A stretch of DNA of 39,832 bases from Actinomycetes bacterium (GTDB taxonomy: Bacteria > Actinomycetota > Actinomycetes > Jiangellales > Jiangellaceae): assembly GCA_021793295.1 (NCBI GenBank), contig JAJYTA010000020.1, positions 1 through 39,832 on the forward strand. The letters are read 5' to 3'. Every line of letters begins with the position of its first letter. The stretch's first letter is position 1. The notes below the pieces were generated by a model, which was not told where the DNA came from, ran no database searches, and worked only from the letters and a program-made list of their open reading frames with translations. The position numbers and the translations under genes were made by a program. Shown here piece by piece: positions 31,251 through 32,785 of the stretch.

Positions 31251-31898
31251 CTACACGTCGAGGCGGATCACGCCGTAGTCGTAGCCGCGGCGGCGATAGA
31301 CCACACTCGGCATCTTCGTCTCGGAGTCGACGAACATGTAGAAGTCGTGTCCGACCAGCTCCATCTCGTACAGGGCCTGGTCGAGCGTCATCGGGCTGGT
31401 CCGGTGGGTCTTTTCCCGTACCACCATCGGACCCCGCTCCTGCACCGCTTCGTCCGGCTTCTCCTCGGTCAGCGCTCCAACGCCTCCAGCGGAGGACGTC
31501 GACGCTGGCATTTGCGCCGGTACGGGCGACGACGTCGGCGCGCCATCGAGATGGGCTGTAGCGGCAGCCACCGACATGGGTGTGCGAGAGCCATGGTGGA
31601 CTCGGCGCCGATCGGCGGCCTTACGCATGCGGGCCAGGAGCCGGTCGGTCGCCAGATCGAGCGCGGCATACCGATCGGCTGCCGCGGCTTCTGCTCTGAT
31701 GACTGGTCCCTTGGAGTGAACCGTCAACTCGACCCGGTCGGAACGGTCAGCCAGTCGCGGGTTGGACTCGGCGGTGACCTCGACGTCGATTCGAATGACC
31801 TTGTGGTCGAGCTTCTCCAGTTTCGCGAGCTTCTCGGACACATGAGTCCGGAACCGCTCTGGCACGGACGTGTGACGTCCCTTGACGACGATATCCAC
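31251..31898 (-). CDS. hpf: Ribosome hibernation-promoting factor, long form
   Basis: Binds the decoding centre of 30S subunits and dimerises or protects 70S ribosomes in stationary phase or hypoxia. From GTG 31898 the protein has 215 residues: an N-terminal HPF/RaiA domain (VDIVVKGRHTSVPERFRTHV; HKVIRIDVEVTAESNPRLAD; AAAADRYAALDLATDRLLAR), a variable linker rich in Ser, Pro and Ala, and the C-terminal dimerisation domain (MTLDQALYEMELVGHDFYMF; VVYRRRGYDYGVIRLDV). This is the long form typical of actinobacteria. GTG 31898 has GGGAGG 6 nt upstream and starts exactly at the family's first beta strand; the open frame continues upstream to 32015, but that stretch is leader. The gene follows comF, as in mycobacteria. 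The leader can form alternative hairpins. Confidence 0.96.
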   Translation of the reverse strand: MDIVVKGRHTSVPERFRTHVSEKLAKLEKLDHKVIRIDVEVTAESNPRLADRSDRVELTVHSKGPVIRAEAAAADRYAALDLATDRLLARMRKAADRRRVHHGSRTPMSVAAATAHLDGAPTSSPVPAQMPASTSSAGGVGALTEEKPDEAVQERGPMVVREKTHRTSPMTLDQALYEMELVGHDFYMFVDSETKMPSVVYRRRGYDYGVIRLDV

Positions 31899-32010
31899 TC
31901 GGAACCTCCCGGTCAGATGGTCGAGGGCAGACACCCGGGGGACCCCCGCGACCGGGGCTTGGCACCCCGGTCTTCCTCTACGATCCGAGGGCGGGTGAGG
32001 GGTGCCATGC
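31899..32010 (-). promoter_or_regulatory. Structured hpf leader with mutually exclusive hairpins
   Basis: On the minus strand a 9-bp stem can form between TGGCACCCC (32007-31999) and GGGGTGCCA (31968-31960). An 8-bp stem can form between GACCGGGG (31972-31965) and CCCCGGTC (31957-31950). They share bases 31965-31968 and so cannot coexist. Further on, CCCCCGG (31941-31935) can pair with the Shine-Dalgarno region CCGGGAGG (31912-31905), with one mismatch. A TANNNT -10 candidate, TAACGT (32021-32016), would place the RNA start right at the first arm. All of this is inspection, with no folding energies computed. Confidence 0.45.
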
Positions 32011-32062
32011 TTCAAACGTTAGCCGTTCGTTGCGCCTCATACACGTCGATCTCGTCGAATCG

Positions 32063-32785
32063 TCACTTCGCCATGGCAATGGCGGCAACACCGCACGGCA
32101 CGGTTCCCGCCGCGCGCAAGGCTCGCGCGGCTTCGCGGACGCTGGCCCCCGTCGTGACGACGTCGTCGACCACCACGACGCAGCGGTCCTGGAGCAGCCT
32201 GAGCGCCGGACGGCGTACCGCCATGGCGTCGACCAGGTTCTGCTCCCGCGCGGCTCGCCCCAGTCCGCCCTGGTCACCGACCCGTCGTACGTGGCGCAGT
32301 CCACGCACCAGGTGAGCATCCTGGCCGGACTTGCGCAGTGTCCGGGCTGCCCGCCGTGCGGTGCGTGCGGTGGCGTCCTGGCCGCGGCGGCGTACGGCTG
32401 CTCGAGCGGATGGCACCGTGACCAGTGCCAGCTCACGGCCGAGGCCGTGCGTGCAGCCGCCGGCCTCGGCGATCAGCGCGGTGACGGCGACGGCGAGGGC
32501 GTCGCCCAGCGGCACCGCCAGTGGCAGCCGGCCGTGATCTTTGTGCCCGATCACGACGGCGCCGACGTCGCGGTAGTCCGCGGCAGCAGCCAGGGCGAGC
32601 TCTGGGGCTTCCGGCACCGTCGAGATCACCCTGGCCGGACCGGCGAGCATGTCCCGGCACGGTGAGCACAGCAGGCCCGGATGCTCGCCGCAGCCTGCGC
32701 AGGTGCTGCCGAGGGCGAGGTCGGCGGCGGAACGGGCCAACGCGGTGACGGCGGGGTGCAGGTGCATGGGTGCATGGTGACGCAC
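32063..32785 (-). CDS. ComF family protein (phosphoribosyltransferase-like)
   Basis: Homologue of ComFC, needed for DNA uptake in competent bacteria. Its role in actinobacteria is not established. The 240-residue protein has the N-terminal zinc cluster (Cys29, Cys32, Cys40, Cys43 in STCAGCGEHPGLLCSPC) and a type I PRTase fold with the PRPP loop VVVVDDVVTTGASVREAARA. The GTG start at 32785 has GAGG 5 nt upstream. It lies between lpqB and hpf, the mycobacterial order (lpqB, comF, hpf, secA1). The third 77-nt element lies just upstream, in opposite orientation, in the 106-bp gap to lpqB, where the comF promoter should also be. Confidence 0.93.
   Translation of the reverse strand: MRHHAPMHLHPAVTALARSAADLALGSTCAGCGEHPGLLCSPCRDMLAGPARVISTVPEAPELALAAAADYRDVGAVVIGHKDHGRLPLAVPLGDALAVAVTALIAEAGGCTHGLGRELALVTVPSARAAVRRRGQDATARTARRAARTLRKSGQDAHLVRGLRHVRRVGDQGGLGRAAREQNLVDAMAVRRPALRLLQDRCVVVVDDVVTTGASVREAARALRAAGTVPCGVAAIAMAK

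Follow-up and report, generated by a model that had tools for sequence, protein, structure and literature searches.

The DNA analyzed here, the window, is a stretch of 39,832 nucleotides from an actinomycete of the family Jiangellaceae (contig JAJYTA010000020.1). Its minus strand carries a comF-like gene, a gap of about 160 nt and then hpf, whose GTG start lies 6 nt from a GGGAGG Shine-Dalgarno motif (31910–31905). The hpf gene is present in 21 of the 22 Jiangellaceae genomes (G002 has no hpf match), including the same-genus relative G001 (66064–66717 of contig C21). The following features of the locus are discussed:

32063..32785, minus strand: comF-like phosphoribosyltransferase gene, the ORF upstream of hpf; start codon provisional; PF00156, 2.9e-06, computed for 32063–32749
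32016..32044, minus strand: promoter-like block, GTGTAT (32044–32039), 17-nt spacer and TAACGT (32021–32016), kept in 20 of 21 family leaders
32000..32010, minus strand: presumed RNA 5' end, GCATGGCACCC, in which GGCACCC (32006–32000) is the 5' arm of a raiA-like P1
31961..31967, minus strand: site A, GGGTGCC, the nearer of two sites competing for the 5' arm and core of the first stem in the first-pass annotation
31950..31972, minus strand: hairpin A, GACCGGGG/CCCCGGTC, the second stem in that annotation
31957–31950, minus strand: 3' arm of hairpin A, a candidate anti-Shine-Dalgarno
31927..31936, minus strand: site B, GGGTGTCTGC, the farther of the two sites, paired with the 5' arm in the minimum-energy fold
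31905..31914, minus strand: hpf Shine-Dalgarno region, GACCGGGAGG, with GGGAGG in 19 of 19 aligned leaders
31251..31898, minus strand: hpf (raiA), long-form hibernation promoting factor, GTG start; PF02482, 2.7e-20; PF16321, 7e-24

The gap upstream of hpf contains a conserved, promoter-like sequence. A sigma-70 consensus scan of positions 31700–32300 returned no site. The −10 candidate proposed in the first-pass annotation corresponds to TAACGT at 32021–32016, and 20 of the 21 Jiangellaceae hpf leaders carry the larger block GTGTAY-N17-TAACGTT-N5-6-ATGGCACCC. The ATGGCACCC element is invariant in all 19 leaders of a MAFFT alignment that excluded L008 (a near-copy of L007) and L020 (from genome G003). 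A search for TAACGTTN5ATGGCACCC that tolerated one mismatch found a single copy, mismatch-free and at hpf, in each of 19 of the 22 genomes of the order; the exceptions are the window (gap of N6), the variant of G003 and G002, the genome with no hpf match. Across the class, the one-mismatch pattern was found in 48 places. Thirty of these were made into loci, with hpf in five (the window and four f17 genomes) and no hpf within the 3 kb retrieved in the remaining 25; several of the 18 places outside the 30 loci are f17 hpf leaders. Transcription from this block would be expected to start at the leader's first arm, in line with the earlier annotation. The distance from ATGG to hpf is 101–128 nt in the 21 family leaders, and the interior of roughly 50–80 nt aligns poorly between genera. 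Because the alignment sets site B of the window in the wrong columns, pairs were counted sequence by sequence.

Two mutually exclusive hairpins and a third pairing that may hide the ribosome binding site had been noticed in the window, and all are present on the minus strand. The 9-bp stem joins 32007–31999 (TGGCACCCC) to its perfect complement at 31968–31960 (GGGGTGCCA), the 8-bp stem joins 31972–31965 to 31957–31950 (GACCGGGG/CCCCGGTC), and their arms overlap in the four bases 31968–31965. The third pairing joins 31956–31950 to 31914–31908 (CCCGGTC/GACCGGG), overlapping the Shine-Dalgarno motif. These stems are above chance: when the 112-nt region was shuffled with dinucleotides preserved, 9 of 2000 sequences contained an overlapping 9/8-bp pair, as did 5 of 1975 other segments of the window. 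The stability of the whole-leader fold is ordinary (z −1.08; 29 of 200 shuffles equally good). The first-pass annotation overlooked that the minimum-energy fold joins the first arm to 31936–31927 (GGGTGTCTGC, site B), not to 31968–31960, and also overlooked a P1-like helix between 32006–32000 and 31936–31930. In the window, the 5' arm has a modeled pairing probability of 0.94–0.99 at site B (state B, −56.5 kcal/mol) and forms 7 of 7 pairs at site A (state A, −53.4 kcal/mol). Exclusive pairings and a possible alternative hiding the Shine-Dalgarno are also predicted in the relatives; the exact 9-bp stem is peculiar to the window, the relatives having 6–7 of 7 pairs at that place.

Each of the 20 leaders with a GGCACCC arm also contains a GGGTG partner for it, although in L003 this partner is at site A only. 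We paired the 12 nt from the first G after the AU against the rest of each leader and compared the result with shuffles. Pairing of the 5' arm exceeded shuffles (p < 0.05) in 12 of the 21 family leaders, in both f42 leaders and in none of four raiA-less controls (f30, f47, f33 and f26). The window is above shuffles (p 0.034), and its best duplex in this comparison is site A. Five leaders of genus g4 gave p values of 0.056–0.148, and arm pairing in L003, L016, L017 and L022 was not above shuffles (p 0.18–0.33). Because the 5' arm is invariant in 20 leaders, the evidence for re-pairing comes from G003 and f42. In G003, a changed arm has a matching partner (GGCCACCCGG/CCGGGTGGTC, p 0.001), although the full-leader fold favors another partner of the arm (0.53 vs. 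0.18 for P1). The f42 genome G262 also has a changed arm with a matching partner (GGCACGACCG/CGGTCGTGC, p 0.006), and the f42 genome G215 has a re-paired arm (GGCGCC/GGCGCC) with a p value of 0.029, but of 0.21 when a 9-nt arm is used. Retention of P1 in the Jiangellaceae hpf leaders is thus fairly well supported at the level of sequence. The G003 leader (L020) is itself unusual in that the interior of its P1-like hairpin is nearly absent; it comes from a 2.3-Mb genome listed as 81% complete.

The resemblance to raiA RNA (RF03072; 'raiA motif', ModT) that the first-pass annotation had raised extends to the ends of the leader, not to membership in the family. The Rfam covariance model (gathering cut-off, 101.3 bits) has no match in the window. 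Matches over the cut-off occur in 101 of 393 genomes of the class vs. none of the 22 Jiangellaceae genomes, in which the best match (19.6 bits) is at chance level. Published work describes raiA RNA as abundant, with comFC and raiA as its commonest neighbors (PMC11706538), and presents a cryo-EM model with helices P1–P8 and two pseudoknots (PMC11751092). Unlike these RNAs, the Jiangellaceae leaders, at 101–128 nt, lack the raiA core (P2–P8, pk-1 and pk-2; about 205–210 nt) and any Rfam match. Like the leader, raiA RNA follows comF and precedes hpf, a position that is frequent but not universal, and it has a similar promoter, a 5' end of ATGGCACCC(G) and a closing helix P1 (GGCACCCG/CGGGTGCC) at its ends. 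In other families, 9 of 12 hpf loci examined have an RF03072 match (133–155 bits) upstream of the gene; the remaining three are an f19 locus with raiA-hairpin and two loci with neither RNA.

We compared the leader with 24 raiA leaders (f9, f13, f17, f23, f28 and f35), chosen for a raiA-like start out of 60 retrieved. Their RNAs start with ATGGCACC[CT]G (once ATGGCGCCCG), 6–7 nt after TARCGT (once TACCGT) and 292–692 nt before hpf. They continue with [CT][CT]CGGGTCCG (once GGCCCG), most end in ..CGGGTGC or alike, and the two ends pair as P1. Fifteen of the 24 are preceded by a comF match, compared with 21 of 21 family loci; the other nine have none within the stretch retrieved. A profile of these 5' ends (20 nt and the 45 nt before them), to which Jiangellaceae contributed no sequence, ranked 32039–32000 top of the window (E 3.9e-4; next, E 14). 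It also matched the other leaders of the family, 19 of 20 at E <= 7.5e-4 and the twentieth, G003, in the correct place at E 0.17. By itself, the 9-nt arm does not reach significance in the window (E 4.9). Part of the profile signal is a general hpf promoter, because raiA-less hpf leaders of f30 (E 8.6e-4) and f47 (E 0.002), which have the promoter and ATGG without P1, match as well. More specific to raiA than the promoter are GCACCC itself, the retained partner and the continuation GTTGTCCG in genus g5, four leaders of which read ATGGCACCCGTTGTCCG, the raiA start minus CGG. On this sequence evidence, the leader falls outside the raiA family, although it most likely descends from a raiA RNA by shortening.

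Two observations were made on the hpf leaders of the comparison families. In f17, all eight leaders L092–L094 and L096–L100 share a second block, GGTATACG, located downstream of the raiA RNA and 137–194 nt before hpf, which is perhaps a second promoter, so that hpf in this family may also be transcribed apart from raiA. The f30 leader L131 contains repeats of CCCTGAGCACCTGTAT-like units.

The second partner of the 5' arm is what could turn a closing helix into a switch. Of the 20 leaders bearing the GGCACCC arm, 16 have two partner sites (pairing CACCC), and 12 of these 16 come from the single genus g4. Site A lies about 32 nt past the arm in most leaders and site B another 19–31 nt on. Leaders L003, L019, L021 and L022 have one strict site; under this strict definition, the last three lack site A. 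The second site gave p <= 0.03 in 10 of 14 tested family leaders with the GGCACCC arm (0.030 in the window) and p values of 0.002–0.038 in 11 of 14 tested arm-bearing leaders. When state A was forced, Shine-Dalgarno bases were predicted to pair with the segment just after site A in 15 of the 16 two-site leaders (31956–31951 with 31913–31908 in the window). With state B forced, this segment covered the Shine-Dalgarno in none of the 16 models, although local sequence still paired with part of the motif. The two states differ by <=3.1 kcal/mol in 14 of the 16 leaders, and which of them (A or B) the model energies favor depends on the species. In ten of the 16 leaders, coverage of the Shine-Dalgarno was also scored after shuffling everything except the fixed sites: it recurred in 79 of 300 shuffles of the window and in 12, 27, 38, 35, 6, 1, 59, 60 and 62 per 300 of the other nine leaders. 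Because shuffles often reproduce the coverage, we grade Shine-Dalgarno gating lower than P1; as a modeled effect it is plausible and only moderately supported. The leader probably acts in cis on hpf, with translation and/or mRNA stability as the presumed point of control.

Working from conservation, pairing potential and model energies, we judge the chances to be about even that the hpf leader is a miniaturized raiA descendant acting as a P1-based two-state switch over hpf. The ancestor would be the raiA RNA that many other Actinomycetes have between comF and hpf. Its promoter, first nine or so nucleotides and closing helix P1 would have been kept, and the core of ~200 nt lost, with roughly 50–80 nt of unrelated sequence in its place. 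We propose that site B is the counterpart of the P1 3' strand of raiA (..CGGGTGC). The 5' arm GGCACCC could then pair with either of two downstream GGGTG copies. In state A the arm would take the near copy, leaving CCCGGTC free to bind the Shine-Dalgarno flank, and little hpf translation would be expected. In state B, the P1-like one, it would take the far copy; the CCCGGTC segment would then fold into hairpin A and no longer cover the Shine-Dalgarno, for which higher translation is predicted. State B also places a stem at the extreme 5' end, which may stabilize the mRNA. Co-transcriptional folding, a protein, temperature or a 70S ribosome bound to the 5' AUG might set the A/B balance.

A simpler reading, possible though rather doubtful in our view, keeps the helix and dispenses with the switch: the 5' stem would slow RNase on the hpf mRNA, and the site A and Shine-Dalgarno pairings would be by-products of G+C-rich sequence. 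G003 and f42 fit this reading, since they keep or re-pair the P1-like helix without a second site above chance in shuffle comparisons, as does the ease with which shuffled leaders yield Shine-Dalgarno partners. The presence of two partners in 16 of 20 leaders, among them g5 leaders whose interior differs, and the second-site p values in 11 of the 14 arm-bearing leaders argue against it. An unlikely reading is that TARCGT..ATGGCACCC is a conserved hpf promoter with its initially transcribed sequence and that the pairings are incidental. Families without P1 also have a similar promoter and ATGG at hpf, and the ordinary fold stability of the window agrees with this idea, but the re-pairing seen in G003 and in G215 and G262 of f42, together with the GGGTG partner in every leader with the GGCACCC arm, does not.

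Leaderless mRNAs have their AUG 6–7 nt after the −10 element. The 5' AUG of the leader has this spacing, and a peptide translated from it (M-A-P..., 31 codons in the window) might control hpf through its translation; the frame ends 14–22 nt before hpf in 7 of the 21 family leaders. We consider this improbable and rejected a conserved peptide at the 5' AUG, because length (7–35 codons or open into hpf), frame relative to hpf and sequence all vary. Eight g4 leaders show no third-position bias (2/4/4 variable columns of 18 each), and full raiA RNAs begin with the same AUG. It is highly improbable that the leader is a ligand-binding riboswitch or attenuator of a new class with no link to raiA, as its exclusive stems and one state covering the Shine-Dalgarno might suggest, given an interior of roughly 50–80 nt that is not conserved between genera and offers no aptamer candidate, the lack of an Rfam match and a 5' end common to raiA RNAs.

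The miniaturized-switch reading has a broader, more tentative extension, which we would sooner doubt than accept: raiA may have been cut to its closing helix in at least two lineages of actinobacteria, and what is left would reveal that P1 works in cis, in the full RNA as well. One promoter would serve raiA and hpf, P1 would gate hpf translation or mRNA survival, and in Jiangellaceae the P1 3' strand would have been doubled into a two-state switch. The leaders of f42 G215 and G262 (L089 and L157), raiA-less, starting with AUGG and closed by re-paired 5' stems, are a possible case of independent reduction. In an hpf protein tree, f42 lies away from Jiangellaceae and the G003 row falls outside the other Jiangellaceae; this weakly supported position of f42 is consistent with more than one reduction of raiA. 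Built from 40 rows of a single gene, with 12 of its 37 inner branches open, the tree is too weak to date the losses. In C. difficile, ModT works in trans, and the authors take this as ground for ruling out a role as a cis riboswitch (PMC11706538); the mini leader, by contrast, is proposed to act in cis. If the reading is true, Jiangellaceae are natural core-deletion mutants in which what raiA does in cis can be told apart from what it does in trans. The adjacency of this deeply conserved, abundant RNA to hpf has no explanation in the literature examined. Loss of the core in a lineage that kept the promoter and closing stem before hpf suggests a role in cis for the raiA ends at this gene, for which the leader of about 110 nt offers a compact system. 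No description of a reduced raiA or of the Jiangellaceae hpf leader was found in the open-licence literature, of which our coverage was partial.

The leader was also compared with other regulatory RNAs. The first-pass annotation had likened its design to riboswitches and attenuators; no Rfam family, and hence no known riboswitch class, matches it. Like translational attenuators and Shine-Dalgarno-sequestering riboswitches, the leader has two exclusive pairings, one of them over the Shine-Dalgarno, but unlike them it has no visible aptamer or conserved leader peptide. No intrinsic terminator was found in 31700–32300, and a match on the opposite strand to the Rfam model of a fungal sRNA (E 8.8) was dismissed as chance. 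We also considered raiA-hairpin RNA (RF03059), which, like the leader, is a small hairpin-bearing element before hpf (in 4 of 4 f19 loci tested) but differs in sequence; the window has no match to it, and none of the 22 family genomes exceeds its 43.7-bit cut-off. The f19 hpf leaders L101–L105 share further blocks, such as GGGGAGGAGGAGGT, upstream of the raiA-hairpin position, which suggests a structured leader larger than the 48-nt Rfam model.
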